From Clostridiales bacterium (GTDB taxonomy: Bacteria; Bacillota; Clostridia; Christensenellales; Aristaeellaceae), in assembly GCA_015056265.1 (NCBI GenBank), contig SVGR01000004.1, positions 1-49,120 on the forward strand: a DNA stretch of 49,120 nt. The letters are read 5' to 3'. The notes beneath the pieces were generated by a model, which saw only the letters and a program-made list of their open reading frames with translations, was not told the DNA's origin and made no database searches. The position numbers and the translations under genes were made by a program. Positions 5,144 through 41,547 of the stretch are shown one piece after another. Position 1 is the stretch's first letter. Each line of letters begins with the position of its first letter.

Positions 5144-5210
5144 TACGCCCTCGATTCATCATAGAGGTTGATGCGGATGAGGCCTATTCATGGGCACACA
5201 TCGACATATT

Positions 5211-17534: not shown

Positions 17535-17594
17535 ACGATTGCGAAGAAAAAAGAATAATATTCCCTTCCTGTTCCGGATTTTTCCCGGTATAAT
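17535..17594 (+). promoter_or_regulatory. Regulon promoter E (GH51 gene): two-block activator site and TATAAT
   Basis: ACGATTGCG at 17535, ATATTCCCT at 17558-17566, then TATAAT at 17589-17594, 54 bp after the A of ACG. No recognisable -35 hexamer 17 bp upstream (TTCCTG). The same arrangement is found at 20518, 24675, 27727 and 41488. The GH51 start follows about 105 nt later. Confidence 0.7.
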
Positions 17595-17698
17595 AAAAAC
17601 AAGGTATTATGCATATCCGGAAATGGCGCTTCGGCCAGTTCCGGCGCCATCGTTCACACAGCAACAAAACGGCATTGGATGAAATGGAGGATCAGGAC

Positions 17699-19201
17699 AT
17701 GAAGGCAAAGATTACCCTGCACCGCGATTTCAAGGTTGGCGCCATTAACCCGTATATCTACGGCTCGTTCATTGAACATATGGGCCGCGGCGTATACAAC
17801 GGCATTTATGAACCCACCCATCCCCTGGCAGACAAAAATGGTTTCCGTGAGGACGTAAAGAAGATCGTGCGGGATATGCACGTGCCCATCATCCGCTATC
17901 CCGGCGGCAATTTCCTTTCCGGCTATCACTGGGAGGACGGCGTGGGCCCCAAGGAAAAGCGCCCCCGGAAGCTGGACGCCGCCTGGCAGCAGATTGAGCC
18001 CAATGAAGTGGGCACGGATGAATTCCATGATTGGGCCCGCGAAGTGGAATCCGAAGTGATGATGGCGGTCAACCTGGGCACCCGGGGCCCCGATGAGGCC
18101 GCCCAGCTGCTGGAATACTGCAATATGCCTGCCGGCAGCACCTTCGCCGATATGCGCGTGGCCTATGGTCATGAAAAGCCCCATGGCGACCGGGTCTGGT
18201 GCCTGGGCAATGAAATGGACGACGCCAACCAAATTTGCTGCCGGACGGCGGAGGATTATGCTGCCATCGCCCGGAAATCCGCCGGCTTGATGAAGAAAAT
18301 CGATCCTTCCATTAAGCTGGTGGCCTGCGGCAGCGCCACCATGTACGAACCCACCTTCGGCGAATGGGAACTGACGGTGCTGGATCGGGTGTACGACCAT
18401 GTGGATTATCTTTCCCTGCATCAGTATTATCCCAATGACCGCAAGGACCGCCCCGATTATCTGGCCAATGCCCTGACCATGGAAGAATTCATCACCGGCG
18501 TGATTGCCATGTGCGACGCCGTGGGCGCCAAGAAGCGCTCCAAGAAGAAGATCAATCTTTCCTTCGACGAATGGAACGTATGGCCCCAGATCGGCAAGTG
18601 CAATAATGCGGTGGATCCCTGGTCCGTGGGTCCCCAGCGCGAGGAATATTTCTTCACCATGGAAGACGCCCTGCTCTTTGGCAGCATGATGATGAACCTG
18701 ATCCGCCACTGCGACCGTGTACATGTGGCCTGCATGGCGCAGCTGATCAACGTCTGCGCCCCCATCATGACCGTGATTGGCGGCCCTGCCTGGGTACAGT
18801 CCACCTATTATCCCTTCTGCTATACCTCCCAGTATGGACGGGGCGTTGCCCTGAATACCCAGGTGATCTGCGACGGGTACAAAACCCGGCGGTACGAGAA
18901 TGTGCCGTGGGTGGATTCCGTGGCGGTGTGGAACCAGGAAGAAAACGAGATCGTCGTCTTTGCCGTCAACCGCTCCCAGGATGAGAGCGCACAGGTGGAA
19001 ATCAATATGGAAAGCTTTGGCAAGGCCAGCCTGATCGAGCACGTGGTGCTGGAGCATGAGGACAAGGATGCCACCAATACCGCCCAGAACCCCGATAACG
19101 TGAAGCCCCATGCCGGCGGCAATACGGTGGTAGGGGAGCAGGGCGCTGTGGTAACGCTGAATCCCTACTCCTGGAATATGATTCGTCTGGCGCTGAAATA
19201 A
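17699..19201 (+). CDS. GH51 alpha-L-arabinofuranosidase
   Basis: A 500-residue cytoplasmic (no signal peptide) retaining glycosidase that removes alpha-L-arabinofuranosyl residues from arabinan or arabinoxylan oligosaccharides. It has the GH51 start NPYIYGSFIEHMGRGVYNG, the RYPGGNFLSGYHWEDG loop near residue 66, acid/base Glu172 in CLGNEMDD and nucleophile Glu291 in SFDEWNVW. Length is typical. The ATG at 17699 opens the conserved domain; the longer frame upstream is rejected because it lies in the leader. It sits next to the GH43-like cluster and shares its promoter architecture, so it probably performs the last intracellular step that yields L-arabinose. No arabinose catabolic genes are in the window. 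Confidence 0.93.
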   Translation: MKAKITLHRDFKVGAINPYIYGSFIEHMGRGVYNGIYEPTHPLADKNGFREDVKKIVRDMHVPIIRYPGGNFLSGYHWEDGVGPKEKRPRKLDAAWQQIEPNEVGTDEFHDWAREVESEVMMAVNLGTRGPDEAAQLLEYCNMPAGSTFADMRVAYGHEKPHGDRVWCLGNEMDDANQICCRTAEDYAAIARKSAGLMKKIDPSIKLVACGSATMYEPTFGEWELTVLDRVYDHVDYLSLHQYYPNDRKDRPDYLANALTMEEFITGVIAMCDAVGAKKRSKKKINLSFDEWNVWPQIGKCNNAVDPWSVGPQREEYFFTMEDALLFGSMMMNLIRHCDRVHVACMAQLINVCAPIMTVIGGPAWVQSTYYPFCYTSQYGRGVALNTQVICDGYKTRRYENVPWVDSVAVWNQEENEIVVFAVNRSQDESAQVEINMESFGKASLIEHVVLEHEDKDATNTAQNPDNVKPHAGGNTVVGEQGAVVTLNPYSWNMIRLALK

Positions 19202-19230
19202 ACGACCGCTGCTGCGGCGTACGGCGTATA

Positions 19231-19268
19231 AAAAATCGCCCCTGTTCTGAAGCATGAGCAGGGGCGAT
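19231..19268 (-). terminator. Terminator between convergent GH51 and URO-D genes
   Basis: ATCGCCCCTG pairs with CAGGGGCGAT (19235-19268). The T-run is on the minus-strand side, so it mainly serves the URO-D gene and may also stop GH51 transcripts. Confidence 0.8.
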
Positions 19269-19285
19269 ATCATTTCCGGGGAAAA

Positions 19286-20305
19286 TCAGTCATTCATATG
19301 CTTTGCAAATTCCACCAGCGTCACCACATTTTCAACGGGCGCTTCGGTGGGGATGGCGCCGGCGGGGCCGAAGATATACCGCCCGCCTTTGCCCAGCAGG
19401 GCCAGACGTTCCTTGCATTCCTTTTCCACATCTTCTTTGGTGCCCAGGGGGATGGTGCTCTGGCAGCCCAGGCCGCCCCAGAAGGTAACCCGATGGCCGT
19501 ACTTTTCCTTCAGTTCCTTCACATCCATGGTTTCAGGCTGGATGGGATTGATGGCCTGCACGCCCATTTCAATCACATCGTCAAACACTTCGTGAATATC
19601 GCCGCAGGAATGAATCAGCACCTGGAAGCCGCGGGCCTTGGCGGCGGCGTACATTTTGCCCAGCCGGGGCTTGAGGAATTTATCCCACAGCCGCTTGCCC
19701 ATGAACAGGCCCTTCTGCTGGCCCCAGTCCTCGCCGAAGCGGATGCCGTCCACGCAGTCGGGGGCGGCGGCGATTTCTTTGAGGATGAATTCCAGAGAGG
19801 CGTCCATCAGCTCTTCCACGAATTCCTCTTCGCAGATGAAATCCTCCATCAGCTGCTCAAATCCCCGCAGATGCCAGGCCACATCCAGCAGCCCGTCCAG
19901 AAAGAGGCAAACATACTCCCCTCTCTCCCGGGCATGTTTGGCCGATTCCACGGCGGCCTTGTATCTTTCTGCGGTGGGCTGCGGGAAAACGTAGCCTTCC
20001 ATGGTGGGCTCTTTCAGGGGCACGGAGGCAATGCCGCCCCAGTCCCCCATGTGCTTCCATTCATCGCTCTTGATCCAGACCGTGCCGAAATCGTCGATCA
20101 TGTGCTTCTCATCCAGATTGCGAAGGCCGCTGTCGATCCAGACGGTGCACAAATAATCCCCGATGCCCCGCTTGACGTTGCCGTCGGCGATCTGATAATG
20201 ATCAATCAGCTTTTCCGCAATCACATTGGTCAGATCGAAGCTGTAGGGCACCTGATCCACTTTTTCGCCTGCAATGGTCTTCCACATGATTTCACGCTTG
20301 GTCAT
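19286..20305 (-). CDS. Uroporphyrinogen decarboxylase (URO-D) family protein
   Basis: A 339-residue TIM-barrel protein of the URO-D/MtaA superfamily. It keeps the His-x-Cys pair His232 and Cys234 (LIHSCGDI) and a later Cys281 (GGLGCQST), the three-ligand zinc pattern of MtaA-type methyltransferases, rather than residues for porphyrin decarboxylation. Start MTKREIMWKTIAGEKVDQVP is typical of family members found in sugar-degradation loci. Role is therefore unknown: a zinc-dependent methyl transfer or an unassigned sugar-linked reaction are both possible. ATG at 20305 follows AAAGGAGG. It has its own promoter and terminator and is divergent from the first GH43-like gene. Confidence 0.8.
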   Translation of the reverse strand: MTKREIMWKTIAGEKVDQVPYSFDLTNVIAEKLIDHYQIADGNVKRGIGDYLCTVWIDSGLRNLDEKHMIDDFGTVWIKSDEWKHMGDWGGIASVPLKEPTMEGYVFPQPTAERYKAAVESAKHARERGEYVCLFLDGLLDVAWHLRGFEQLMEDFICEEEFVEELMDASLEFILKEIAAAPDCVDGIRFGEDWGQQKGLFMGKRLWDKFLKPRLGKMYAAAKARGFQVLIHSCGDIHEVFDDVIEMGVQAINPIQPETMDVKELKEKYGHRVTFWGGLGCQSTIPLGTKEDVEKECKERLALLGKGGRYIFGPAGAIPTEAPVENVVTLVEFAKHMND

Positions 20306-20344
20306 GGATAAACCTCCTTTTATATGTAAAACGTTGTTTGTGAC

Positions 20345-20394
20345 AATCACCGTGATTCAATTGCAGTATACTGTTTTTTTATCAGGAATGTCAA
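20345..20394 (-). promoter_or_regulatory. URO-D gene promoter with palindromic operator candidate
   Basis: Minus strand TTGACA (20389-20394), 18-bp spacer, TATACT (20365-20370). Just downstream of the -10 lies the perfect palindrome AATCAC-C-GTGATT (20345-20357), positioned where a repressor would block transcription start. Confidence 0.65.
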
Positions 20395-20517
20395 TGTAAA
20401 TACGTTCTTTTGCTGCGAAATCGACCACGGATTTTTTAGAAAAGCGCGGGAAGCAGGCGATTTTTATATGCAGAAGGGGAGGGCGGATCTCCACCATAGC
20501 ACAAGTGTGATTTGCGG

Positions 20518-20577
20518 ACGATTTTACATTTTATATACCCATATTCTCTATTAATTCAAAAAGCGCTGTGATATGAT
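20518..20577 (+). promoter_or_regulatory. Regulon promoter A (first GH43-like gene)
   Basis: TTTGCGGACGATTTTAC ends the first block (ACG at 20518), ATATTCTCT at 20541-20549, TATGAT at 20572-20577, exactly 54 bp from ACG. The -35 position reads TATTAA. Confidence 0.7.
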
Positions 20578-20643
20578 CTATTCGTACAAGTGGCGGTATT
20601 TTGGCCGTTTTTTCAATTTGTGAGATGAAAAGGAGCGGAAACG

Positions 20644-22128
20644 ATGCGGAGAATACTGATTCTACTGATTGGTTTGCTGATGCTATCGTGCACAGCGGCA
20701 GCTGAAGAAAAAGGGGAGTTGTCCGACGGCGCGGTGTACCGCTTTTCCTGTGCCGGGTCCGATTTCAGCCTGGCGGCATCCTCCTTCGGCCTTTCGGATG
20801 TGGCTACGGTGGCCCAGCTGGAAAGGTATAACGGCAGTCTCAATCAGGCATGGCGCGTTCATGCCCGGGAGGACGGCGCCTGGGAGCTGGAATGCCTGGT
20901 GACCGGGCAGTATCTGACGGTTCTTCGCAACAGCAAAAAGGATGGCGCAGCCATTTCCCTGGCCGATTATACGGGGAAGGCGGGCCAGCGGTGGTATATA
21001 CAACAGGAGAACGGCGGCTGGCGGCTGATCAGCGCCCACAGCGGAAAAAGCCTGCAGCCGGTGGGGGGCGTCATCAAGGCCTATGAGAAGGTGCGCCAAT
21101 TTGAAACGGCAGATGAAAAGAGCCAGCTTTGGGAAATCAGCATGCTGGATGACGGCAGCACCGTATTCCCCAGGATGCTGCTGGTGAAGGGGGATGTGAA
21201 TAAGGCGTCCTGTTTGGAAATTATCAGGGCAGACGGCATGTATTATGCGGTTTCGGCGGTTCATGATGGCTGCGGCTATAAGATGTCCGAGGATATGATC
21301 CATTGGACGGAAATGGAAAATGCCTTTTATATTGCCGATATCGGCCCCTGGAAACGGGATAATGTGGAAAACGGCGATCTGTGGTGCCCCGGCATCTACC
21401 GGATCGGGGAAAAGTATTATATCTATTATGCCCTTTCCAAGCCCTATTCTGTTCAGTCCTCTATTGGTTTGCTGAGCAATACGACGCTGGATCCCGCAGA
21501 TCCCAATTACAAATGGGTGGATGAAGGGGAGGTTATTCGTTCTGATTATGGCTCTTCCTACAATTGCATCGATCCCTGTGTGATTATCGATGATGCGGGA
21601 GATCCTTGGATGGTATTCGGCTCCGGGATGACGGGGATCAAGATCACCCGCCTCAATGCCCAGACGGGCAAGCTGCTGGATGAGGAAAATCCCCAGATCA
21701 TCGGCCTTGCGTCCCGTGCCCGGGGAGATAAGGCAATTGAAGCCGGATATATGGTTCAGCGCGGCGATGATTACTATCTGTTTGTGGCTGCGGGCCCCAT
21801 GTCGCCGGGTACGTATTTTAACGGCGTTGGCCGCGGGGAAAGCGTTACCGGCCCCTTCTATGCCCGGGACGGTGTGGCCATGATGGACGGCGGCAAGCGG
21901 GGCGGGGCCACTCTCATAACAGAGCCCAAAGAAGGCATCGATATGCCCGGCCACTGCGCCCCGTTCCAGGATGACGATGGGCAGTGGTATTTCCTGATCG
22001 AATATTTCCCCGAAGGATACGGCGCGAAGCTGGGCATCAGCACCATGGTATGGGATGAAGAAGGCTGGCCCTGGACGGCGCTGACAGCGGACGTGGTAGG
22101 GAAACTGGGCACCGGCCCGGTAAAATAA
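20644..22128 (+). CDS. Exported ricin-domain/GH43_5-like protein 1
   Basis: A 494-residue protein with a signal peptide; MLSC at 13-16 is a weak lipobox, otherwise cleavage near AAA/EE. Residues 25-165 form a ricin-like beta-trefoil with QxW motifs (LNQAW at 66-70, QLW at 161-163). Residues 170-485 resemble endo-1,5-alpha-arabinanases (GH43_5): LWCPGIYRIG, TLDPADPNYKWVDEG, NCIDPCVIIDD (Asp310, pKa modulator), KAIEAGYM (Glu366, general acid), GPFYARDGVAMMDGG, PGHC (His437). The expected catalytic-base HDPS motif reads SCLEI at 189-193, so the base Asp is Cys190; Glu192 is conserved in all five paralogs. Activity is therefore uncertain: shifted base, or a binding protein. ATG has AAGGAG upstream. 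Confidence 0.85.
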   Translation: MRRILILLIGLLMLSCTAAAEEKGELSDGAVYRFSCAGSDFSLAASSFGLSDVATVAQLERYNGSLNQAWRVHAREDGAWELECLVTGQYLTVLRNSKKDGAAISLADYTGKAGQRWYIQQENGGWRLISAHSGKSLQPVGGVIKAYEKVRQFETADEKSQLWEISMLDDGSTVFPRMLLVKGDVNKASCLEIIRADGMYYAVSAVHDGCGYKMSEDMIHWTEMENAFYIADIGPWKRDNVENGDLWCPGIYRIGEKYYIYYALSKPYSVQSSIGLLSNTTLDPADPNYKWVDEGEVIRSDYGSSYNCIDPCVIIDDAGDPWMVFGSGMTGIKITRLNAQTGKLLDEENPQIIGLASRARGDKAIEAGYMVQRGDDYYLFVAAGPMSPGTYFNGVGRGESVTGPFYARDGVAMMDGGKRGGATLITEPKEGIDMPGHCAPFQDDDGQWYFLIEYFPEGYGAKLGISTMVWDEEGWPWTALTADVVGKLGTGPVK

Positions 22129-22149
22129 AAAAGGAGGAAAATAAGCAAA

Positions 22150-23607
22150 ATGAAGAAAATGGTACTGGTATTGCTGCTGGTGAGTTTGGTGATGGGCTGC
22201 GCCGGTGTGCATGCAGAGGAAGTCCTTCGGGACGGCGCAGTATATCAGTTCAGCTGCGGCAGTTCCCAGTTGAGCCTGGCGGTATCCTATTTTGGCATGA
22301 ACAGCGCTTCATCCGCGCAGCTGGAGGCTTATGACGGCAGCCTGAATCAGGCGTGGCGTGCCCATGCGCAGGAGGATGGAACCTGGAAACTGGAATGTCT
22401 GGTGACTCAGCGTTATCTGACGCTGCAGCCTGTTACCGGAAAGGTCTATCCCACAACAGACCAGAATCTGCCGGAGCAGAAATGGTACATTGAACGGGAT
22501 AAAAATGGCTTGAACATCATCAGCGCGTCAAGCGGGCTCTATCTGCAGCCGAAAAATGGAAAATTAGCCAAGTCGGCAGCCATTTATCATTCCGAAACCA
22601 ATAAGCAGCCCTGGCATGAAAAAATGGTGGATGACGGAAGCACGGTCTTTCCGCATATGCTGCGTGTGAAGGGCAATATTGATATGATTTCCTGCCCGGA
22701 AATCCGCAAGGTGGACGGCGTGTACTATCTGGTGGGGGACAATCGCGATGGCTGCGGTATCCGCACTTCCACGGATATGATCACCTGGACCGCCCTTGAA
22801 AATGCCTATACCTATGATGACGTACAGCCCTGGATGCAAAAGGATGTGCCCAATCCCAGCCTCTGGTGCCCGGGATTGTATAAAATCGGCGATACCTGGT
22901 ACATCTATTATGCCCTGACCACGCTCTATTCCCAGCGCTCCACCATTGCTATTTACAGCAACAAAACCTTGGATCCCAATGATCCTGCGTACGAATGGGT
23001 GGATGCAGGGCCGGTGATCAGTTCCTATAAAAATGATCCCTACAATTGCATCGATCCCTGTGTGGTGATGGATGATAACGGTGATCCCTGGCTGCTCTTT
23101 GGTTCTGCCTGGACGGGATTGAAGATTGTTCGCCTGAATGCAGAGAACGGCAAGCTGCTGGAGCCGGAAAACCCGAAGATTTTCTGGCTGGCGTCCCGGG
23201 TCAATGGCGATCGCGCCATTGAAGGGGGATACATGATCAAATATCAGGATCATTATTATCTCTTTGCAGCGGTGGGCATCATGACGGCGGGGAGCTATTC
23301 CAACGGCGTGGGCCGGTCCGAAAATATCACGGGCCCCTTCTATGCCCGGGATGGAGTAGCCATGCTGGATGGCGGCTATAAGGGCGGCGCAACGCTGCTT
23401 ACCGAGGAAAAATCCGATATGGTGATGCCCGGTCACTGCTCGGTTTTCCAGGATGACGACGGTCAGTGGTATTTCATCATGGAATATTTTCCTGCAGGCA
23501 TTGACGCCCGGCTGGGAATCAGCACCCTGGTTTGGGACGAAGAGGGCTGGCCCTGGACGGCGCTGACCCCCAATATTGTAACGCGGCTGGGAAATGGCGG
23601 GAAATAA
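22150..23607 (+). CDS. Exported ricin-domain/GH43_5-like protein 2
   Basis: A 485-residue close paralog of the preceding gene, 21 bp downstream and in the same operon, with its own AAAGGAGG site. It has a signal peptide with VMGC at 14-17 as a possible lipobox. Domain order is the same: ricin-like residues 26-160 (LNQAW at 65-69), then the propeller. Asp302 (NCIDPCV), Glu358 (RAIEGGYM) and His429 (PGHC) are kept. The base position reads ISCPEI at 180-185, Cys182 in place of Asp, with Glu184 two residues later. The WCPG motif replaces the usual WAPD of GH43. Probably acts with protein 1 on arabinan at the cell surface. Confidence 0.85.
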   Translation: MKKMVLVLLLVSLVMGCAGVHAEEVLRDGAVYQFSCGSSQLSLAVSYFGMNSASSAQLEAYDGSLNQAWRAHAQEDGTWKLECLVTQRYLTLQPVTGKVYPTTDQNLPEQKWYIERDKNGLNIISASSGLYLQPKNGKLAKSAAIYHSETNKQPWHEKMVDDGSTVFPHMLRVKGNIDMISCPEIRKVDGVYYLVGDNRDGCGIRTSTDMITWTALENAYTYDDVQPWMQKDVPNPSLWCPGLYKIGDTWYIYYALTTLYSQRSTIAIYSNKTLDPNDPAYEWVDAGPVISSYKNDPYNCIDPCVVMDDNGDPWLLFGSAWTGLKIVRLNAENGKLLEPENPKIFWLASRVNGDRAIEGGYMIKYQDHYYLFAAVGIMTAGSYSNGVGRSENITGPFYARDGVAMLDGGYKGGATLLTEEKSDMVMPGHCSVFQDDDGQWYFIMEYFPAGIDARLGISTLVWDEEGWPWTALTPNIVTRLGNGGK

Positions 23608-23644
23608 TGAATCCGCGCCGGCACTGCCGGAAACGAATACATGA

Positions 23645-23682
23645 AAAAATGCGCTCCTGGTTCGAACCATGAGCGCATTTTT
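23645..23682. terminator. Bidirectional rho-independent terminator
   Basis: AAAAATGCGCTC pairs with GAGCGCATTTTT (12 bp) around a 14-nt loop; it separates the convergent GH43-like operon and AraC gene and works in both directions. Confidence 0.9.
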
Positions 23683-23699
23683 ATGATGGGGGAAAGAGA

Positions 23700-24569
23700 T
23701 TATTCGCCGTCGGCTTTTTCTTCTTCGCATATGGAGGCGTGGGATTGGCTTCGGCAATCCTTTGCTGAAATGCCGGATAGTTTTTTGAATATACGGCGGA
23801 AATAGTTGCAATCGCAGAATCCGGTGAGGGCTGCAATTTCTGTGATGGGCAAATCCGTATTTTCCAGCAGCTTGGTAGCGTACAGAATGCGTCGCCGCTG
23901 GATATATTCCGCCAGAGAGCAATCCAGATAAGGCTGGGAAAGCTTATAGAGCTGGGTGCGGCTGACAAAAAAATGATTGCACAGATCGGAAATCTGGAGA
24001 GGTTTGGCCAGGTGTGCGTCAATGTATTCATTGAGGTTTTTGAGGAAGTCATTCTTGTTGGGCCTGATCATTTGCTTGCTCAGGCAGAACAGGGCCAGGG
24101 ATTCCAGGGTGGTGACAGCGGCGTTCATCACATCCTGCCCCCGGCTGTCCAGGGAAAGGATGGCCTGGCGCAGCTCATCCTCCGGGAAATGGTAAGGCTT
24201 AAGATAATCATATATTTCTTGCCGCTGCTCATGGATCCGCGCGCTGTCAATCACCTCGCCGCACATGATGTAAGCCAGAATATGATTATCAATTTTTAAC
24301 GGAATGATGAAGATCTGCAGACCGACGTGACAGGTATAGATATGGGGAGAGGTGTTTTTCTGGCAGCGGATGAAGGCGGCAAGATCGCATTGACGGCATT
24401 TTTCATCCAGCTCCGGCTTGGTTCGGGTCAGCACGCAAAGCTGGCAGGGCTGGGAAGGAAAGGTAATCAGTTCCTGCGCATTGTGGTCCAGCAGCCCGAT
24501 GCGCATCCCGGTAAGGGTGTAAAAGTCTTTCAGAACGATCTGAAGATTTTTTGTATCAATGCTTGCCAA
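23700..24569 (-). CDS. AraC-family regulator with PocR-type sensor domain
   Basis: A 289-residue transcription factor. Residues 1-170 resemble a PocR ligand-binding domain, with a cysteine-rich segment (CQLCVLTRTKPELDEKCRQCD at about 42-62, further Cys near 70 and 80) that may bind metal. Residues 185-280 hold two AraC helix-turn-helix motifs, LQISDLCNHFFVSRTQLYKL and LPITEIAALTGFCDCNYFRR followed by IFKKLSGISAKDCR. The TTG start at 24567-24569 is supported by GGAGG at spacing 8 and by the domain start. It is divergent from the third GH43-like gene and is the only activator-type regulator in the locus, so it is the best candidate to bind the two-block promoter element. Confidence 0.85.
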   Translation of the reverse strand: MASIDTKNLQIVLKDFYTLTGMRIGLLDHNAQELITFPSQPCQLCVLTRTKPELDEKCRQCDLAAFIRCQKNTSPHIYTCHVGLQIFIIPLKIDNHILAYIMCGEVIDSARIHEQRQEIYDYLKPYHFPEDELRQAILSLDSRGQDVMNAAVTTLESLALFCLSKQMIRPNKNDFLKNLNEYIDAHLAKPLQISDLCNHFFVSRTQLYKLSQPYLDCSLAEYIQRRRILYATKLLENTDLPITEIAALTGFCDCNYFRRIFKKLSGISAKDCRSQSHASICEEEKADGE

Positions 24570-24839
24570 CGAAACCGCCTCCGCCTAAAAGCGCTGCTCA
24601 GGATATTGACTAATATTATACACGATTTGTTTCTTTGAGCAATAGAGGAAACGGTGAAATCGGAAAAAATGAGAACGATTTTACACAAAATAGCGGATTT
24701 TCCCTTTTCATTCGATGGCGGATCCTGCTATATTAAATTGACGATATGGGATGAAAACGATGAATTTCGACATGAACACCAACGAGGTTTATCTAAAAAA
24801 CAGAATAGAGTACCCCAGTCAGAGAGGAGTAGTATTCAT
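24570..24839. other. Divergent araC/GH43-like promoter region (270 bp)
   Basis: Minus strand: TTGCTC (24637-24642), 16 bp, TATAAT (24615-24620) for the AraC gene. Plus strand: regulon promoter D. The frame open through this stretch is not coding because a promoter lies in it. Confidence 0.6.
24675..24734 (+). promoter_or_regulatory. Regulon promoter D (third GH43-like gene)
   Basis: ACGATTTTAC at 24675, ATTTTCCCT at 24697-24705, TATATT at 24729-24734, 54 bp from ACG; -35 position TTTCAT is poor. Start codon follows about 105 nt later. Confidence 0.7.
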
Positions 24840-26201
24840 ATGAATATGCTGGTGAACGGTGGCATTTACATCATTCGGGATCAGGAAGGGCTGGCGCTGG
24901 CAGGCGACAACTTTGGCTTTCATGAGGCGGAAAAAGTTGTGATGCAGCCCTATTCTCAGGATCTGAACCAAGCCTGGCAGCTGAAACAGAACGAGGAGGG
25001 AAAATGGGGACTGATGAATCTGGCGGCGCGTCAGTGGTTCTACAGCTTCACATTTGATCAGCTGGCTTATGCCCCCTGCTTCCTGGTGCCCGGGGAAAAG
25101 GGCCCTGCCTATCCTGTTTTGCCCTGCGAAGAGGGCTATAAGATTGAGATTCTCGGCCAGTATGTTCAGAGCATGGGCGCTCATCAGCCGGTGATCCGCT
25201 CTGCTGAGGGAACGATATTTACATTTGAATTATTGCATGAAGGCCCCTGCGATCTGCCCCATATGCTGGTGCTTCGGGGGGATACCGCCAACACCGGCGT
25301 TTCGGAATTGTTCAAGGACGGGGATTGGTATTATTGCATCTGCGACCGCCGCAACGCCCATGAGAATCGGGAACGGGTGGGCATCAAGCGGTCGAAGGAT
25401 CTGATTCAATGGCACGATTATGATTTTTTACTGCCCCGCAGCAATCCGCGGCCCTATCCCTGGATGGAGGAGCACGTGCCGGAATGCGATATCTGGTGCC
25501 CCTCTCTGGATTATTTCGGCGGCAAGTATCGCATTTATTATGCCGTGACCAAGATTTTCAAGAATACCACGGTGATGGGACAGCTTTCCAATGTGACGCT
25601 GGATAAGAATGATCCTTATTACAACTGGGTGGACGAAGGCCCTGTGATGATCACCCGGGAGGGCGATGACTGGAACGCTATTGATCCCCATGTGATTCAT
25701 ACGTACGACGGGGAAATCTGGATGGTTTATGGTTCTGCCTGGTCGGGCATCAAGGTGCGCCGCATCAATGAGGAGACTGGCAAGGTATATGATGACAAGG
25801 TGTATTCCGTTTGCTACCGTGAAGAATTCCCGCACCCCGCCGAGGGCGGCTATCTGTTCAAACGGGACGGCTGGTATTACCTGGTGGCGGCGGTAGAACG
25901 GATGGATCAGAATTACCGGGCGGTAGTGGGACGCTCCCGGGATATCCGCGGCCCCTATCTGGACAGGGACGGCGTGGACATGATGAAAGAAGGCGGCACA
26001 ACCATCGTGGAGCATAAGCGCGGCCTGTGCTATCCGGGCCACAGCACGGTGCTGCAGGATGGGGATCAGTATTATATTGTCTTTGAGCATAAGGGCGGCC
26101 GGTGTGCCCAGGTGGAACTGGATATCAGTACCCTGACCTGGGAGGACGGCTGGCCGGAAAGCGCTGCCGGCCGCAGGGTGCTGGCCCGATTTGAAAAATA
26201 A
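24840..26201 (+). CDS. Cytoplasmic ricin-domain/GH43_5-like protein 3
   Basis: A 453-residue paralog without any signal peptide. Residues 5-135 form the ricin-like domain (NGGIY, LNQAW at 42-46); 140-450 the GH43-like propeller with NAIDPHV (Asp282), HPAEGGYL (Glu335), GRSRDIRGPYLDRDGVDMM and YPGHS (His401). At the base position the sequence is GVSEL, Val154 instead of Asp, with Glu156. ATG 24840 is preceded by GAGGAG at a suitable distance and gives an N-terminus that aligns with the next two genes; the longer GTG-initiated frame spans the promoter and is rejected. Probably acts on imported oligosaccharides. First gene of an operon with protein 4. Confidence 0.85.
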   Translation: MNMLVNGGIYIIRDQEGLALAGDNFGFHEAEKVVMQPYSQDLNQAWQLKQNEEGKWGLMNLAARQWFYSFTFDQLAYAPCFLVPGEKGPAYPVLPCEEGYKIEILGQYVQSMGAHQPVIRSAEGTIFTFELLHEGPCDLPHMLVLRGDTANTGVSELFKDGDWYYCICDRRNAHENRERVGIKRSKDLIQWHDYDFLLPRSNPRPYPWMEEHVPECDIWCPSLDYFGGKYRIYYAVTKIFKNTTVMGQLSNVTLDKNDPYYNWVDEGPVMITREGDDWNAIDPHVIHTYDGEIWMVYGSAWSGIKVRRINEETGKVYDDKVYSVCYREEFPHPAEGGYLFKRDGWYYLVAAVERMDQNYRAVVGRSRDIRGPYLDRDGVDMMKEGGTTIVEHKRGLCYPGHSTVLQDGDQYYIVFEHKGGRCAQVELDISTLTWEDGWPESAAGRRVLARFEK

Positions 26202-26246
26202 GAAAAACGGATCCAATCAAAAATCAGGAAACAGGGGGAAACTGTT

Positions 26247-27623: not shown

Positions 27624-27637
27624 TTCATATATCAAAT

Positions 27638-27676
27638 GGCGGCAGGGAAAACGGCATGCGCGTTTTCCCTACCGCC
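27638..27676 (+). terminator. Strong hairpin after protein 4
   Basis: Arms of about 16 bp (GGCGG-c-AGGGAAAACG with CGTTTTCCCT-a-CCGCC) around a 7-nt loop, followed by TTATAT. T-run is poor but the helix is long. Confidence 0.55.
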
Positions 27677-27726
27677 TTATATGAAAAGCGGTAAAACTTT
27701 GATGTACGTTCAGAAAGTATTTCCGG

Positions 27727-27787
27727 ACGATTTTGCAGGAATAGAATCATATTCCCTCTTTTGTGGCCCAGATTTTTTTGCTATAAT
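27727..27787 (+). promoter_or_regulatory. Regulon promoter B (fifth GH43-like gene and transport operon)
   Basis: CCGGACGATTTTGC (ACG at 27727), ATATTCCCT at 27749-27757, TATAAT at 27782-27787, 55 bp from ACG. Shares with promoter E also a GATTTTT tract just upstream of the -10. Start codon follows 99 nt later. Confidence 0.72.
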
Positions 27788-27886
27788 ACTTGGAGAGAAA
27801 AACTTGTATTGCTGAATTGACAGGATTATTTGCATCCCAGGCGGCAAGAGTCAGTTTTTCTATAGGGCCTAAACAAGACAAGGGCG

Positions 27887-29248: not shown

Positions 29249-29297
29249 TCCGCGAGCTGTTTTCAAGGTGAAATTATGACACGGAGGAGAGATGTAG

Positions 29298-32944: not shown

Positions 32945-32965
32945 TGCACGGAAGGGGGTGGCAGT

Positions 32966-34978
32966 ATGCGACGGGTGATGATCTGGGCGGTTTGCATGTT
33001 GCTGTGCTTGACTGCCGGTGCGCAGGCGGCAACAGCACCTTATACAACCCTGACGGAAGACAATGAAGGAAATCTGATCACGACCCTGGATGGTTATGCT
33101 CCGTCGGTGGTAATGACTACCTTCGATGGAAAAGTCCTGAAAAGTGCGCAGGATATCTTCATTGATGAAAACGATTTGCTCTATATTGCAGATACGGGCA
33201 ATAAGCGGGTGGTTTGCGCCACGCTGGATGGGGAATATCTGCGGACGTACGGCCAGGGCACGCTGAAAAAGCCCACCGGCGTCTGCGTACGAAATGGTAA
33301 GCTGTATGTGGCGGATACGTCGCTGAAGGCGATCGCAGTTTTTGATCTGGAAACAGGTGAAGAACTGAACCGATATAAAAAGCCGGAAGAGCCGCTCTAC
33401 GGTGATGACGTACGTTTTGAACCGCAGAAGGTGCAGGTTAATTCTGCCGGCGTCATATATCTGATCTCCAACGGCAATCCCAACGGTGTGGCGATGCTGG
33501 CGGAAGATGGGGCGTTCCTGGGATACTTTGGCGCCAACAAAACCGCCTTGGGCTTTGGCGAGATTCTCAAGCGCATCTTCTACACTTCCGAAATGCTGGA
33601 GTCTCTGCGCCAGAACGTGCCCAATACTCCTACGAATCTGACGATGGATAAGTATGGCCTGATCTTCACTGCCACCTCCGGCGCCGCAGAAGATTCGGTC
33701 AAGAAATTCAACATGGCAGGGGAAAACCTGCTGCCGCCCCTGACCCGGCTCAATACCAGCCTGGTGGACGTGGCGGTGGGCCAGGAGGGCACCTTCTACG
33801 CCATCAGTTCCCTGGGGTATATTTACGAATACACGGAAGAAGGGCGGCTGCTTTTCTTCTTCGGCGGTGAAGACAAGACGGGGAACCGCGACGCCATGTT
33901 TGGAAACCTGGTATCCATTGCTGCCGACAGTAAGGGCAATATTTACGTATTGGATACCAACAAGAATCTGGTGCAGGGATTCAAGCAGACGGCCTATGCG
34001 AAGCTGCTGCATCATGCGCTGGATCTGTGGCGCGAGGGCCTGTATGCCGAGAGCATGGAGCCCTGGCAGGAAGTGCTGCGCTACAACAACCTGTTTGACT
34101 TTGCTTACGCCGGCCTGGGCAAGGCATATTACAAACTGGCGGATTATGAGCAGTCCCTGGAATACTTCCGTCAGGGCGATGATAAGGAAGGCTATAGCGA
34201 TTCGTTCTGGGAAGTCCGTGCGGTGGTGCTGCAAAATTCCATGGGCGGCATCATCATCGGGTTGGTTGCGTTCTGGCTGGTCATGAAGCTGATCCGCCGC
34301 ACCAAGCCGTACAAGGCTTTCCGTGCCGGTCTGCATCGGGTAGGGGAGATCCCTGTGATGCGCGCGCTTCGCCTGGTAGGGCGCACGCCCCGCAATCCTG
34401 CGGCAGCCTTTGAAGCGGTTAAAGCGGATCATGCGGTTTCTATCCGTACGGCCACGGTGCTGTATGGGCTGCTGTTTGTGTTTTTCCTGCTTAACAAGTA
34501 TGCTTCGGCGTTCCTGTTCAAGACGGTGCCGGATGGATACTATAATATTCCCATGGATATCGCGCTGTTCTTCGGTATCCTGGCACTGTTTATCATTTCG
34601 CTGAATCTGGTTTGCTCTACCCGTCAGAGTGAAGCGCGGATGCGGGATCTGTACTGCGGGCTGCCGCTGGCGTTGTCGCCCATGTTCATTTTCATGCCCC
34701 TGATGACCATCCTGGGCTATGGGCTGACGTATAATGAGCAATTCCTGATGTCCTTCAGTTCGTTCATCATGATCATGGGCAGTGTGGTGCTGGTGATCGT
34801 TATGATCCGTGAAATGCAGAATTATACCTACGGCGAAACATTCCGTGTGGTATTGCTCACGTTGTTTGTGATGATGGTTTTGACGCTGACCATGGTGGTC
34901 ATTGTCATTCTGTTGGCGCAGTTGTTCTCGTTCATTTCAACGGTCATACGGGAGGGGAGCTATCTTGTACAGATGTAA
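32966..34978 (+). CDS. NHL-propeller/TPR/YIP1-like membrane protein
   Basis: A 670-residue protein: signal peptide (1-21, AQA), then an NHL-type beta-propeller at about 45-345 (repeats such as DIFIDENDLLYIADTGNKRVV, GVCVRNGKLYVADTSLKAIAVF, SIAADSKGNIYVLDTNKNLV), TPR-like helices at 350-410 (YAESMEPWQEVLRYN, AYAGLGKAYYKLADYEQSLEYF), a membrane span near 425-445, and five or so spans at 490-660 resembling a YIP1 domain. The propeller and TPR should face outside. Known context: such proteins occur with DUF5696 and sugar permeases in Firmicutes, but I know of no assigned function. GGAAGGGGG precedes the ATG. It could dock the unanchored binding protein at the membrane (inference). Confidence 0.75.
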   Translation: MRRVMIWAVCMLLCLTAGAQAATAPYTTLTEDNEGNLITTLDGYAPSVVMTTFDGKVLKSAQDIFIDENDLLYIADTGNKRVVCATLDGEYLRTYGQGTLKKPTGVCVRNGKLYVADTSLKAIAVFDLETGEELNRYKKPEEPLYGDDVRFEPQKVQVNSAGVIYLISNGNPNGVAMLAEDGAFLGYFGANKTALGFGEILKRIFYTSEMLESLRQNVPNTPTNLTMDKYGLIFTATSGAAEDSVKKFNMAGENLLPPLTRLNTSLVDVAVGQEGTFYAISSLGYIYEYTEEGRLLFFFGGEDKTGNRDAMFGNLVSIAADSKGNIYVLDTNKNLVQGFKQTAYAKLLHHALDLWREGLYAESMEPWQEVLRYNNLFDFAYAGLGKAYYKLADYEQSLEYFRQGDDKEGYSDSFWEVRAVVLQNSMGGIIIGLVAFWLVMKLIRRTKPYKAFRAGLHRVGEIPVMRALRLVGRTPRNPAAAFEAVKADHAVSIRTATVLYGLLFVFFLLNKYASAFLFKTVPDGYYNIPMDIALFFGILALFIISLNLVCSTRQSEARMRDLYCGLPLALSPMFIFMPLMTILGYGLTYNEQFLMSFSSFIMIMGSVVLVIVMIREMQNYTYGETFRVVLLTLFVMMVLTLTMVVIVILLAQLFSFISTVIREGSYLVQM

Positions 34979-37106
34979 AGTACTTTTGGCTTTATTCGTG
35001 CTGGTGTCCCTGCTGCCGGGTATGGCGATGGCAAATGTGCAGGATGCCGGGCTTTGGGAGAATGACGCATGGCGTCTGACGCTGGACGAAAGCAATCTTA
35101 TTTTTACGCTGGAAAGCAAGGCCAGCGGAAATACGGTTGAAAGTGCGCTTTCCGCCCCGGATAAGAGCCTGAACAAGCAGTGGAAGGATTTCCTGGGCTC
35201 TACGGTGGTCATTGAGTATGCGCTGGAGGATTCCTCCACCACCACGCGCCTGGGGCTGATCAATTCGGAAGCCACCTGGACGGTTTCCGCTGTTGAAGAC
35301 GGCTTTGATGCGGATATCTGCTTTAACACGGTGGGCATTTCGCTGCGGCTGAGCGTAAGGCTGACGGATGACGGATTAACCATGACGGTGCCTGCGGAAA
35401 GCATTGTGGAAACCAACGAAAATCTGCTGTGCGCAGTGCATATGGCGCCGGCTTGGGGGGCCACGCTGCTGGATGAAAAGGAAGGCTATCTGTTTATTCC
35501 GGAGGCTGCCGGCGCCATCATTCGCTATTCTGACGGCAACATCAGCAGCAAGTCTCCCTACACCAAGGCGGTGTGGGGGGATGACCTGGGCGTGGATGAA
35601 CCTTCTGCCAGCCGGGCCATGTATCCCAGCGTCAAGGCGGAAGAAAAGATTCTGCTGCCGGTTTACGGAAACGTCAATACAACCGACGGGCTTGCCTCCC
35701 TGTTCATTCTGGAGCAGGGCCAGGAAAATGCCGAAATCATCGCCTATGCAGCGGGTATCGTAACCAATTACAATTTTGTCGGCGCCCGTTATGTGATGCG
35801 CGATAAATACTTTAAGCTCAACAGCGCCACCCGCGGCTCCCTGATTTTCCAGAAAGACATACAGTCCCGGGATCTGATTACCCGGGTATGTCTGCTGGAA
35901 GGAGAACAGGCAACGTATAGCGGCATGGCCCAGCGGTATCGGGCGTATCTGCTGCAGGAAATGCAGCTGCAGGCGATCGAAGATACCCGTACGGTTCGCG
36001 TGGACTTCCTGGCAGGGGAAACCCGGAAAGGCATTTTCTTTGATGAAACGGTTGCCGTTACCACCATTGATCAGATGGCGGATATTCTTCAGAAATTTGC
36101 CGATGCGGGCCTGACCAATGTGGATGCCTACTATGTGGGCTGGCAGCAGGGCGGTAAAACCAGCGGCTATGGTGTGAAGCCTACGGGCATTGACGGTGCG
36201 CTGGGCAGCAAGCAGGAACTCTATAACCTGGGAAAAATGCAAGAAGAACGGGGCGGCACCCTGTCCCTGACCCAGGATTTGCTCCATGCCTATCCGAAAC
36301 GGACCTATCGCAGCGGCATGCTGGCCCGTATGATCAATAAGGAGATCATGAAGGTCTTCACCAATCATATCGCTTATCCGGAATTGAACATTCTCTCGCC
36401 GCTGGTTGTGCCGGAATATGCGCAGGCACTGAAGAAGCTGGCGGATGGGCAGTTGGATTTGAGCATTACCGGTATCAGCGGCAGCATGTTCAGCTACGCG
36501 GCAAACAACAAGGATCTGTACAGCCGTCAGGAATGCTTCGAACAGTACAGCAGCATCTTTTCTGATTTGACCCAGGATCATCGTCTGGCCATGGATCAGC
36601 CCCTGAGCTGTTACCTGCCTTACACCGACGCCTATCTGGATATGCCGCTGGAAACTACGAATTACACGCTGATTGAAGCGGGGGTTCCTTTCCTGCCCAT
36701 GGTGATCGACGGCCTGATTCCCTATTGGAGCGATTATCTGAATTTCAGCGCGGATCCGGATTATACGCTGCTGAAGCTGATCGAGTACAATGCCAATCCG
36801 TCCTACATCATTACCGCGGTGGACGCCTATGTGCTGCAGGATACCAATTCCAACGATATCTTTTCCGCCCAGTGGGATGTGTTCCTGCCGGATATCCTCA
36901 AGGTTCGGGATGCGCTGGCGCAGCTCAATGTGGCAGTGGAAGGCAGCAATATGTGTGACCATCGGATTGAGGGCGACGTCGTATATGTAACCTATTCCAA
37001 TGGCGCGTCGGTCTGCATCAACTACGGTATCAGCGCTGCTGAAACCGATGACGGACAGATCCTGGCGCCCGGCAGCTACTGCATCAGGGGAGGGGAGAAG
37101 GAATGA
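34965..37106 (+). CDS. DUF5696-like secreted protein
   Basis: A 713-residue protein with a signal peptide (residues 1-23, MAMA site) and no membrane anchor or lipobox. It opens with beta-rich ENDAWRLTLDESNLIFTLESKASG and has a central domain with VDAYYVGWQQGGKTSGYGVKPTG and GGTLSLTQDLLHAYPKRTYRSG, which looks like a TIM-barrel of glycosidase type. Assignment to DUF5696 rests on size, layout and position beside a YIP1 protein and permeases, so it is moderately sure. The TTG start at 34965-34967 is selected because GGAGGGG lies 7 nt upstream; it overlaps the previous gene by 14 nt. Role unknown; an extracellular sugar-processing or binding partner of the importer is plausible. Confidence 0.72.
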   Translation: MYRCKVLLALFVLVSLLPGMAMANVQDAGLWENDAWRLTLDESNLIFTLESKASGNTVESALSAPDKSLNKQWKDFLGSTVVIEYALEDSSTTTRLGLINSEATWTVSAVEDGFDADICFNTVGISLRLSVRLTDDGLTMTVPAESIVETNENLLCAVHMAPAWGATLLDEKEGYLFIPEAAGAIIRYSDGNISSKSPYTKAVWGDDLGVDEPSASRAMYPSVKAEEKILLPVYGNVNTTDGLASLFILEQGQENAEIIAYAAGIVTNYNFVGARYVMRDKYFKLNSATRGSLIFQKDIQSRDLITRVCLLEGEQATYSGMAQRYRAYLLQEMQLQAIEDTRTVRVDFLAGETRKGIFFDETVAVTTIDQMADILQKFADAGLTNVDAYYVGWQQGGKTSGYGVKPTGIDGALGSKQELYNLGKMQEERGGTLSLTQDLLHAYPKRTYRSGMLARMINKEIMKVFTNHIAYPELNILSPLVVPEYAQALKKLADGQLDLSITGISGSMFSYAANNKDLYSRQECFEQYSSIFSDLTQDHRLAMDQPLSCYLPYTDAYLDMPLETTNYTLIEAGVPFLPMVIDGLIPYWSDYLNFSADPDYTLLKLIEYNANPSYIITAVDAYVLQDTNSNDIFSAQWDVFLPDILKVRDALAQLNVAVEGSNMCDHRIEGDVVYVTYSNGASVCINYGISAAETDDGQILAPGSYCIRGGEKE

Positions 37107-39018: not shown

Positions 39019-39081
39019 TCCTTTTCTTTCAGGCATTGCCCCGGCAACGGGCAAAAATAAATCTTTTAAGGAGGAACCCAC

Positions 39082-40404
39082 ATGAAAAAACTCACTGCTC
39101 TGTTCCTGGCCCTAATGCTCCTGCTTGGCGCCGTCGGTGCAAGCGCTGAGCTGGACCCCATGACCGATGAAGAAATCACCCTGACTTTCGGCACCTGGAT
39201 GAACGACGAGAATTGGACCCCCATCATGAATGCTTCCATCGAAGCGTTTGAAGCCGCGTATCCCAACATCACCGTTGAACTGATCCCCATGTCTACCGGC
39301 ACCCTCTTTGAGGATCTGCAGAACATGGCCGCCGCCGGCACCCTGCCGGATATGTTCCTGACCATCAACGTGCCCACCGTCGTGACGAACGGCTGGGCCC
39401 TGGATGTGGATAAGTATCTGGAAAACGATCCCGATGCAGCCGCCATCATGCCCAGCATGATCGACGCCGCCCGCATTGACGGCCGCGCCTTTGCGATCCC
39501 CGCCTATCTGTATCCCTACATCTGCATCGTCAACAAGACCAATATCGAGGAATACAACCTCGAAATGCCCTCTGCCGACTGGACCCTGGAAGAATACCAT
39601 GAACTGGCCGAAGGCATGGCTCACTATGAAAATTGGGATGTGGGCGCCGGCGGCCATCAGCTGCAGCGCTGGTACCCCGCTCTCATGGAAGGCAAATCCC
39701 TGTATTGCTGGGACGGCGAAAAGTATGATTTCACCGAAACTTGGGTAGAATCCATCGAAATCATGCGCGACATGGCCGACATGCACGCCTGGGAAGGCTG
39801 GGAATCTGAAGAAGATAAGATTGCCGCGCTGGGCAGCACCAGCGTGTGGATCGGCGGCACCGGCCTGGTGGGTCTGTTCATGGACTACAACTGGGGCGTC
39901 AAGCCTTTCCTGACCTTCTACAACAAGAAGACCGCCCATGATTTCTACATCTATCCTCAGCCTCTGGGTGAAACCGACAACGCTATGTGCGCTGCCGACT
40001 ACCTGTGCATCTGTGCCGCTACCGAATATCCCCGCGAAACCTACGAACTGAGCAAGTGGCTGGTTTGGGGCGAACAGGCCTGCAATGATGCTATTGCCCA
40101 TCACACTGCCAAGAAGTCCAAGACCATTGACAACCTGCCTGTTATCACCACCGAGTACATCTGGGAAGCCTATGCCAATACCGTCAGCGATCACGTGCTG
40201 ATCTATGACAGCCAGCGCAACTACATCCCCGAAGCTTCCTATGTAGCCCCCGGCTATACCGAGCTGGATGCCTGGATTGCCGAGAACAATATCTGGGGCG
40301 GCATCTGGAGCCACCAGCTGGACGGCTATGCCGTGCTGGATGAACTGAATGAAGTGGCTCAGGGCTTTGTGGATGACTACTACGATAACCTGATCCTCGA
40401 CTGA
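39082..40404 (+). CDS. ABC sugar solute-binding protein (importer 2)
   Basis: A 440-residue exported binding protein. The signal peptide ends GASA/ELD with no cysteine, so it is not a lipoprotein by sequence. The mature part begins ITLTFGTWMNDENWTPIMNASIEAFEAAYPNITVELIPM, the usual type-1 SBP start, and has GTLPDMFLTINVP and DGRAFAIPAYLYPY segments; many Trp, Tyr and acidic residues fit a carbohydrate site. AAGGAGG at 8 nt upstream and strongly biased codons (GCC, AAC, ATC, GAA) indicate high expression. Two hairpins follow it before the last permease, consistent with differential mRNA stability. Confidence 0.9.
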   Translation: MKKLTALFLALMLLLGAVGASAELDPMTDEEITLTFGTWMNDENWTPIMNASIEAFEAAYPNITVELIPMSTGTLFEDLQNMAAAGTLPDMFLTINVPTVVTNGWALDVDKYLENDPDAAAIMPSMIDAARIDGRAFAIPAYLYPYICIVNKTNIEEYNLEMPSADWTLEEYHELAEGMAHYENWDVGAGGHQLQRWYPALMEGKSLYCWDGEKYDFTETWVESIEIMRDMADMHAWEGWESEEDKIAALGSTSVWIGGTGLVGLFMDYNWGVKPFLTFYNKKTAHDFYIYPQPLGETDNAMCAADYLCICAATEYPRETYELSKWLVWGEQACNDAIAHHTAKKSKTIDNLPVITTEYIWEAYANTVSDHVLIYDSQRNYIPEASYVAPGYTELDAWIAENNIWGGIWSHQLDGYAVLDELNEVAQGFVDDYYDNLILD

Positions 40405-40414
40405 TGAAACCGTT

Positions 40415-40500
40415 CTCTGCTGAGGGAGAGGAGAGCAGAGCGAACGATTCTGTTTTCTTCTCCCGGCGATTCTGCTGGGCTGCGTGCGGTCTTTGACCGC
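40415..40500 (+). other. Two intercistronic hairpins downstream of the binding protein gene
   Basis: CTCTGCT (40415-40421) pairs with AGCAGAG (40434-40440); GCGGTC-TTT-GACCGC is perfect at 40486-40500. Neither has a T-run. Such hairpins often protect the upstream binding-protein mRNA. No promoter is clear before 40589. Confidence 0.5.
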
Positions 40501-40588
40501 TGCGGCCGCAGCAGAGGAAAATGATTTCACAGCAAGGATGGCCCTTAAACGGTTGCTGCTTCACACAGAATAAGGAGGAGTCAAACTC

Positions 40589-41458
40589 ATGAAACGTCAG
40601 CATACCCTTTTCAATCCAAGGCACTTCAGTGTCAGACAGCTGCCTTTGTATGCATTTCTTGTGCCGCTGGCGTTGTTTATGAGTTTGCCCATCGTGTTCA
40701 TCATCGGCCATGCGTTCAAGCCGTTGTCCGAGCTGTTTGCATTCCCGCCGAAGTTTTTCGTAAAGAATCCAACGTTGGATAACTTTGAACGCATGGTGCA
40801 GACTACCCAGTCCTCCGGTATCGATCTGACCCGATACCTGTTCAACAGTCTGATCGTTACCCTGGCGGTTGTGATTGGAACGATCATTATTGGATCCATG
40901 GCCAGCTTCGCCATGTCCAAGATGCGTTTCAAGGGCAAGGCGCTGGTGTTTGAAATCAACACGGTGGCCATGATGTTCGTTCCGGTTGCGGTTCGAATTC
41001 CCCGGTATCTGGTGATCAACACCACCGGTATCATGGATACCTATCTGGCCTATATTCTGCCGATGCTGGCGCTGCCTGTGGGCGTGTTCCTGGTCAAGCA
41101 GTTTATGGATCAGATCCCGGATTCCCTGATTGAAGCGGCCTATGTGGATGGCGCCAATCATCTGACCATTTACTTCAAGATTGTTATCCCACTGATCAAG
41201 CCGGCCATTGCGACGATTGCGATTCTTTCCTTCCAGCAGGTCTGGAATGATACGGAAGCAGCTTCGCTGTACGTTACCAAGGAAAGCATGCGTACCCTTA
41301 CTTTCTTCATGAATACCATGGCGGGCAATACCACCGGCGTGGCCGGTCAGGGTGTTGCTGCGGCTGCATCTCTGATCATGTTCCTGCCCAATCTCATCAT
41401 CTTTATCTGCATGCAGAGCAAAGTGATGAACACCATGGCGTATTCTGGAATGAAGTAA
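40589..41458 (+). CDS. Sugar ABC transporter permease (MalG type, importer 1)
   Basis: A 289-residue MalG-type permease with six spans; first span PLYAFLVPLALFMSLPIVFIIGHAF. EAA loop: EAAYVDGANHLTIYFKIVIPLIKP near residue 188. AAGGAGG precedes the ATG. Placed after the second binding protein, it is an extra MalG-type subunit; with the MalF-type gene at 32054 it would complete importer 1. The pairing is inference from counting two MalF-type and two MalG-type subunits. Confidence 0.88.
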   Translation: MKRQHTLFNPRHFSVRQLPLYAFLVPLALFMSLPIVFIIGHAFKPLSELFAFPPKFFVKNPTLDNFERMVQTTQSSGIDLTRYLFNSLIVTLAVVIGTIIIGSMASFAMSKMRFKGKALVFEINTVAMMFVPVAVRIPRYLVINTTGIMDTYLAYILPMLALPVGVFLVKQFMDQIPDSLIEAAYVDGANHLTIYFKIVIPLIKPAIATIAILSFQQVWNDTEAASLYVTKESMRTLTFFMNTMAGNTTGVAGQGVAAAASLIMFLPNLIIFICMQSKVMNTMAYSGMK

Positions 41459-41487
41459 TCGCATGTTGCAAGTAATTCGATTTGCGG

Positions 41488-41547
41488 ACGATATCACCAT
41501 TTTTGAACAATATTGATGTGTATTTTGGCGATTTTGTATGCTAAAAT
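41488..41547 (+). promoter_or_regulatory. Regulon promoter C (small secreted protein gene)
   Basis: TTTGCGGACGATATCAC (ACG at 41488) is nearly identical to the block in promoter A; ATATT at 41510-41514; TAAAAT at 41542-41547, exactly 54 bp from ACG; -35 position TGTATT is poor. Confidence 0.65.

Follow-up and report, generated by a model that had tools for sequence, protein, structure and literature searches.

What governs the arabinan-degradation genes of this Clostridiales bacterium is the question raised by a stretch of 49,120 nucleotides of its contig SVGR01000004.1 (hereafter, the window), in which five promoters share an element of two short blocks placed 54 or 55 nt before the -10 hexamer, and in which a gene for a regulator with a PocR sensory domain and an AraC-type double helix-turn-helix (HTH) lies within the same cluster. 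The answer that we strongly favor is that the element is the operator of an activator of the PocR-AraC family, most likely of the protein encoded at 23703–24569, for which we infer both the binding and the activation. The sites themselves, their geometry, the register of the repeat within them, and the tie of the element to this regulator family across genera can be read directly from the DNA.

Five proposed operator-promoters in the arabinan cluster

The element had been described in a sequence-only reading of the window, and upon re-reading the sequence all five copies were present as stated:

17535..17594, plus strand: operator-promoter 1, ACGATTGCGA; ATATTCCCT at +23; TATAAT at +54; upstream of the GH51 arabinofuranosidase gene (ArfA-type)
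20518..20577, plus strand: operator-promoter 2, ACGATTTTAC; ATATTCTCT at +23; TATGAT at +54, TGn extended; upstream of GH43 genes 1–2
24675..24734, plus strand: operator-promoter 3, ACGATTTTAC; ATTTTCCCT at +22; TATATT at +54; upstream of GH43 genes 3–4 and divergent from the regulator gene
27727..27787, plus strand: operator-promoter 4, ACGATTTTGC; ATATTCCCT at +22; TATAAT at +55; upstream of GH43 gene 5 and a long gene run
41488..41547, plus strand: operator-promoter 5, the weakest of the five, ACGATATCAC; weak ATATTGATG at +22; TAAAAT at +54; upstream of the 41600 protein
23703..24569, minus strand: PocR-AraC regulator gene (PocR domain plus AraC-type double HTH), the proposed activator

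The spacing from ACGAT to the -10 is accordingly +54, +54, +54, +55, and +54 for 17535, 20518, 24675, 27727, and 41488, as had been claimed, and the second block starts at +23, +23, +22, +22, and +22, within the offset of 22–23 given for it, the copy at 41488 being a poor one. The assignment of the sites to the GH51 gene, to GH43 genes 1, 3, and 5, and to the 41600 protein was likewise upheld. As to the good -35 hexamer said to be lacking, we counted matches to TTGACA at spacers of 15–19 and found at most 3 of 6 in four of the promoters, in which that statement is correct, and TTTTCA (4 of 6, spacer 18) in the promoter at 24675. A TGn-extended -10, which feature had escaped the earlier description, is present in four of the five promoters. 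Beyond the two blocks and the -10 hexamer, there is little alignment among the five site sequences.

For leave-one-out scoring of each site, a matrix was made from the remaining four and applied to the two strands of the window, 98,055 positions besides the site itself. When blocks 1 and 2 were combined, none of those positions equaled 17535, 20518, 24675, or 27727; the site at 41488 was equaled by two other positions, and by one once the -10 was added. Block 1 alone proved weak for 17535, with 237 window positions scoring as high, and ACGATT by itself showed no enrichment, there being 26 occurrences on both strands of the window versus about 24 expected from length alone.

The element beside homologous regulator genes

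The scan of relatives that had been proposed as a check was made with R1, a sequence-only profile built solely from the five sites in the window, which was run on 35 loci with PocR-AraC genes (126 kb); this set included four paralogues from the same genome and excluded the window copy and duplicates. Eight matches were obtained at E ≤ 5, of which seven adjoined a regulator gene. The top five (L118, 29.3 bits; L015, 23.2; L125, 22.3; L022, 20.7; and L123, 20.1; E from 1e-7 to 9e-5) are all found just 5' of a regulator gene and point toward the gene divergent from it, which placement is also that of L023 (on contig C120, 12.7 bits) and L119 (10.4 bits), so that L121 (14.0 bits) is the sole match not adjoining a regulator. 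These regulator-adjacent matches span other genera, and L118 comes from a genome (G990) of a different family from that of the window. In a run of R1 on 48 further whole genomes, the highest of the matches listed, in G024 (20.7 bits), adjoined a PocR-AraC gene.

The genes divergent from the homologous regulators, 17 of which were scanned, included ten for sugar-catabolic enzymes, listed first:

L127, L021, L122, L016, divergent from the regulator: FGGY kinase
L118, L119, divergent from the regulator: transketolase
L116, divergent from the regulator: xylose isomerase (653 bits, above the cut-off)
L059, and L132 below the cut-off, divergent from the regulator: fucose-isomerase-like
L052, divergent from the regulator: class II aldolase
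L082, L123, L019, divergent from the regulator: DUF4432, which we take to be aldose-epimerase-like
L054, L055, each next to a paralogue for which no site was detected: solute-binding protein
L134, divergent from the regulator: LacI
L126, divergent from the regulator: sugar-nucleotide-epimerase-like protein

The regulon claimed for the window and its AraC-type control thus both find independent support, in the position of the top R1 matches at homologous PocR-AraC genes and in the sugar-catabolic nature of these ten divergent genes.

A half-site repeated at about two helical turns

A survey of spacing covered 34 regulator loci, which remained of 36 after removal of the window copy and of a locus at the edge of a contig. 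In their upstream regions divergent from the regulator we counted how far AC[AG]A[AT] lies from a -10 having at least 5 of 6 matches. Distances of 53, 54, 55, and 34 nt occurred 3, 9, 7, and 9 times, respectively, no other distance within 20–89 exceeding 5 counts and none at all exceeding 4 on the regulator-facing strand. The distal AC[AG]A[AT], at 53–56, was found in 19 of the 34 loci (shuffled mean 1.29, maximum 6 of 500), and the unwidened ACGAT at that spacing in eight (shuffled 0.22, maximum 3).

The peaks at 34 and 54 nt therefore point to a pair of half-sites with an offset of 20 bp. Within the window a similar repeat shows at a lag of 19 nt downstream of block 1, the mean identity over six sites (the five above and the candidate at 20424 considered below) being 5.3 of 10 positions, compared with 1.7–3.8 at the remaining lags between 14 and 31, which resemblance would place block 2 (ATATTCCCT) in the interior of a degenerate second half-site. 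The two blocks are consequently best read as one half-site of some 10 bp (ACGATTTTAC) directly repeated at 19–20 bp, an interpretation that amends the earlier two-block description. The second copy, degenerate in the window, keeps AT-TT there and appears as ACGATGTTC or ACGATATTT in relatives. Setting the -10 at -12 would put the starts of the half-sites near -66 and -46 and the end of the second one at -35.

By eye, four loci (L019, L020, L132, and L138) carry CGAAC repeated at 20 bp in place of ACGATT, which substitution suggests that in these loci the half-site drifted together with the regulator.

Further candidate sites in the same genome

The genome to which the window belongs (2.36 Mb searched, 77.65% complete) was scanned by matrix, as had also been proposed. 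R1 gave the five window sites at 44–49 bits, as it must by construction, the next match in this genome standing at 14. Seven weaker matches were listed, three of which sit at promoters: that on contig C26 upstream of another GH43 gene (best NCBIfam match AbnA, below the cut-off), with a -10 at +55; that on C120 upstream of an operon of a class II aldolase, a fucose-isomerase-like protein, and an FGGY kinase (xylulokinase-like), with a -10 at +53, in a region divergent from a PocR-AraC paralogue; and that on C88 upstream of a LamG/phosphoesterase gene, with a -10 at +55. We discarded the match on C143, whose overlapping 10-mer is without a -10 at +52 to +56, and that on C159, which upon reading had no operator-promoter layout; the remaining two of the seven lie on C37 and at C99:3298.

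ACGATTTTRC occurs 13 times in the whole genome and three times in the backward control, which difference, taken alone, we set aside as too weak. The three copies in the window have a -10 at +54/55 and an identity of 8–9 of 9 to ATATTCCCT; of the ten outside it, nine are without a -10 at +52 to +56, and the tenth (C99) combines TATTAT at +55 with a match to block 2 at only 3 of 9 positions. The pattern ACGAT-N-TATAAT gave 27 matches in the genome versus four backward, and the five with a spacing of 53–55 are two of the window sites and those on C26, C120, and C6. A loosened scan of the fetched loci and the window was rejected: it also matched unsupported places, such as window positions 5151, 17421, 32292, and 36730.

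A sixth operator candidate in the window, missed in the earlier description, scored 17.1 with the matrix, the next window position reaching 15.4:

20365..20424, minus strand: candidate sixth operator, TCGATTTCGC; second half-site ACGTATTTAC at +19; TATACT at +54; upstream of 19289–20320
19289..20320, minus strand: URO-D/MtaA-like methyltransferase-family gene behind this candidate (NCBIfam matches below the cut-off)

Unlike the five main sites, it has a perfect TTGACA -35 with an 18-nt spacer, and hence departs from their weak -35. The gene behind it, located inside the arabinan cluster, would by its URO-D/MtaA likeness belong to a corrinoid methyltransferase family. With the additional GH43 gene, the aldolase/isomerase/kinase operon, and the 20424 site, the regulon is probably wider than five promoters.

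A second profile, R2, was built from eight sites and depends on R1. Over the same genome it returned no strong new site, and over the 34 regulator loci it gave nine matches, six of them regulator-adjacent (including L134) and three weak ones elsewhere. Two R2 matches, L101 (C176:8257) and L099 (C105:6095), of 12–14 bits, stand 5' of genes whose starts look by eye like those of secreted proteins, and these could possibly be extra members of the regulon.

The regulator and its proposed mode of action

The window regulator matches the PocR sensory domain (PF10114) with 105.6 bits against a cut-off of 23.9, and its C-terminal double HTH matches HTH_18 over positions 1–79 of 80 with 62.2 bits. It misses the NCBIfam equivalog for PocR, NF047788 (112.2 bits versus a cut-off of 500), and no pdu or cob family was found among the 28 window proteins scanned, its neighbors being GH43, GH51, and ABC sugar-transport genes. 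Five PocR-AraC genes are present in the genome, and the homologues found among 99 relatives have 28–35% identity to the window protein. A comparison of recognition helices did not separate the regulators with sites from those without.

In the mechanism that we propose, a dimer of the activator would occupy the direct repeat of about two turns (19–20 bp), a spacing that lets its two subunits sit on the same side of the DNA, and, the downstream half-site ending at -35, the bound activator would substitute for the missing -35 contact at promoters that have a good, often extended, -10. The inducer held in the PocR domain would probably be arabinose, an arabino-oligosaccharide, or a catabolite, a pentose-related compound being likely because of the gene context; upon induction everything behind the five sites, from the GH51 gene and all five GH43 genes to the transporter run and the 41600 protein, would be turned on together.

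Two paralogue loci, L054 (C77) and L053 (C176), have in common, by eye, TTTTTGTCCAA followed some 21 nt on by a TTTTCTTGTT-like block. This motif lies 49 nt before a TATACT of its own and is thus a different motif in a similar layout, again 5' of PocR-AraC genes.

Competing explanations

The binder could instead be another PocR-AraC paralogue, such as that on C120, or several paralogues could share the operator, in which circumstance the cluster and the catabolic operon would be cross-regulated. The genome does hold five such genes, a similar site (GGACGATTT) adjoins the C120 paralogue, and the D-x-N pattern recurs in the second HTH of the C120 regulator; that pattern, however, is frequent as well among regulators for which no site was detected, and the gene of the window regulator stands within the cluster, divergent from 24675, in the arrangement seen in the top five R1 matches. 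We consequently regard this possibility as unlikely, though deserving of attention, and as to which of the five paralogues binds we would still name the window protein as the most likely one.

That the bound protein represses, or that the element is a mixed activator and repressor site, is suggested by the sixth site: the promoter that it overlies has a perfect TTGACA, and a protein bound there could occlude the polymerase. The five main promoters, having no good -35, would nevertheless need help, and in the case of AraC-family regulators tandem sites 5' of a promoter have been read as indicating activation (PMC8579813), so that we hold repression to be improbable. A still smaller chance attaches to the notion that the likeness was inherited from GH43 genes duplicated together with their promoters and reflects no regulatory constraint: the five GH43 genes are clustered and probably duplicates, and three of the five sites precede one of them, but the sites align poorly outside the blocks and the -10, two lie before genes of unrelated kinds, and in other genera the same element stands beside regulators, which last finding largely refutes it. 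Finally, a chance similarity picked out by eye from AT-rich promoters, for which the unenriched ACGATT and the R1 matches that reach 20 bits where the genome has no matching regulator might speak, is scarcely credible in view of the leave-one-out ranks and the matches at regulator genes.

Against the reading of the element as the operator of a PocR-AraC activator, several observations have to be weighed. At the sites themselves, the second block at 41488 is poor, retaining only the first part of block 2; the site at 20424, having a full -35, need not be activated; and the weak matches in the same genome (12.7–13.6 bits) are no higher than many elsewhere, so that their placement alone favors them. 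In the 48-genome run, which held one of the five positive genomes (G024), the next of the matches listed were in G065 (20.0 bits) and G007 (19.1), two genomes without a PocR-AraC match, and further matches among those listed fell in G064, G014, and G010, again without a matching regulator. In the spacing survey, the widened AC[AG]A[AT] was chosen after the locus sequences had been viewed, the pattern is absent from 15 of the 34 loci, the anchor counted in G015 and G005 does not keep register with the repeated CGAAC seen in those two, and some loci are close relatives, which makes the counts non-independent. Seven of the 17 divergent genes are not clear sugar enzymes. As to the regulator, no close orthologue was found among 99 relatives (best, 35% identity), a search of 307 other genomes of the family at E ≤ 1e-45 matched G048 alone, and one of 398 genomes of the phylum at E ≤ 1e-50 matched only the genome of the window.

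Relation to known systems

At the class II promoters of Escherichia coli that are served by AraC, XylR, and RhaS, the half-sites are direct repeats about two turns apart, the proximal one abutting or overlapping the -35. The window sites have this same layout of repeats, with a different half-site sequence and under a regulator with a different sensor domain.

In Caldicellulosiruptor bescii, AraC-family regulators of carbohydrate genes have tandem-repeat sites with large spacers 5' of the promoter and are taken as activators, the AraR of that organism, of the GntR family, being taken as a repressor (PMC8579813). Those AraC-family proteins are, like the window regulator, single-component and have tandem sites upstream of the promoter; unlike the situation in the window, PocR has no occurrence in the main text of that paper. 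PocR itself is the activator of pdu and cob, for propanediol and glycerol use and B12 synthesis (PMC3162504), and PocR-domain regulators occur at microcompartment loci (PMC4207490). The window protein shares with PocR the sensory domain and the AraC-type HTH, but sits among arabinan genes and below the NCBIfam cut-off for PocR sensu stricto. A paper on fucose and rhamnose use names PocR, in the part available, only as unrelated to its DeoR-family regulator (PMC3557285), and in the titles and abstract beginnings of the open-licence literature no PocR regulator of arabinose or xylose genes was found. The proposed mechanism is of a known kind, that of an AraC-family activator bound to tandem sites, joined in this case to a PocR sensor and to sugar targets.

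From the raw sequence, then, and with support from relatives, an arabinan-degradation cluster gains a likely regulator, operator, and set of targets, and PocR domains, which in the sources cited were published for propanediol and glycerol use and for microcompartment loci, are suggested to serve pentose catabolism too. We put forward tentatively, and at somewhat less than even chances, the broader idea that a whole branch of the PocR-AraC regulators in this order shifted from the sensing of diols to that of pentoses (arabinose or xylose), keeping one rigid operator grammar, namely AC(G/A)A(T/A)TTTAC repeated at 20 bp with the first copy 54 bp from the -10. If this were true, such regulons (transketolase, xylose isomerase, arabinan degradation) would be readable across uncultured genomes by sequence alone.

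Genes behind the sites

The gene runs downstream of the sites, which from the gene spacing would be operons, are as follows:

20644–22128 and 22150–23607, plus strand: GH43 genes 1–2, downstream of site 20518
24840–26201 and 26247–27623, plus strand: GH43 genes 3–4, downstream of site 24675
27887–29248, plus strand: GH43 gene 5, downstream of site 27727
to 41458, plus strand: same-strand run after GH43 gene 5 (ABC transporter, NHL, DUF5696)
41600–42256, plus strand: protein of unknown function, 218 aa, with a signal-like N-terminus by eye and a weak PepSY_2 match below the cut-off

In the run to 41458, the intergenic gaps are at most 63 nt with the single exception of one of 184 nt (40404–40589). 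A hairpin resembling a terminator at 27638–27676, detected in the minus-strand scan, separates the GH43 3–4 unit from that of GH43 5. The GH43 relatives in named genomes (13 loci), mostly in Bacteroidota and of 26–38% identity, were left unused.

The start of the GH51 gene is likely at 17699 rather than at 17609, because the latter lies too near the -10, the ArfA model begins at residue 31, and GGAGG stands just 5' of the former; the leader of this gene contains, by eye, an inverted repeat ATGGCGC...GCGCCAT. Within the transporter run, the open reading frames of the NHL-repeat and DUF5696 proteins (32966–37106) overlap as listed by 77 nt, and the second start probably lies further downstream. 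The 916-aa protein at 42755–45505 contains at least seven WG repeats (PF14903).

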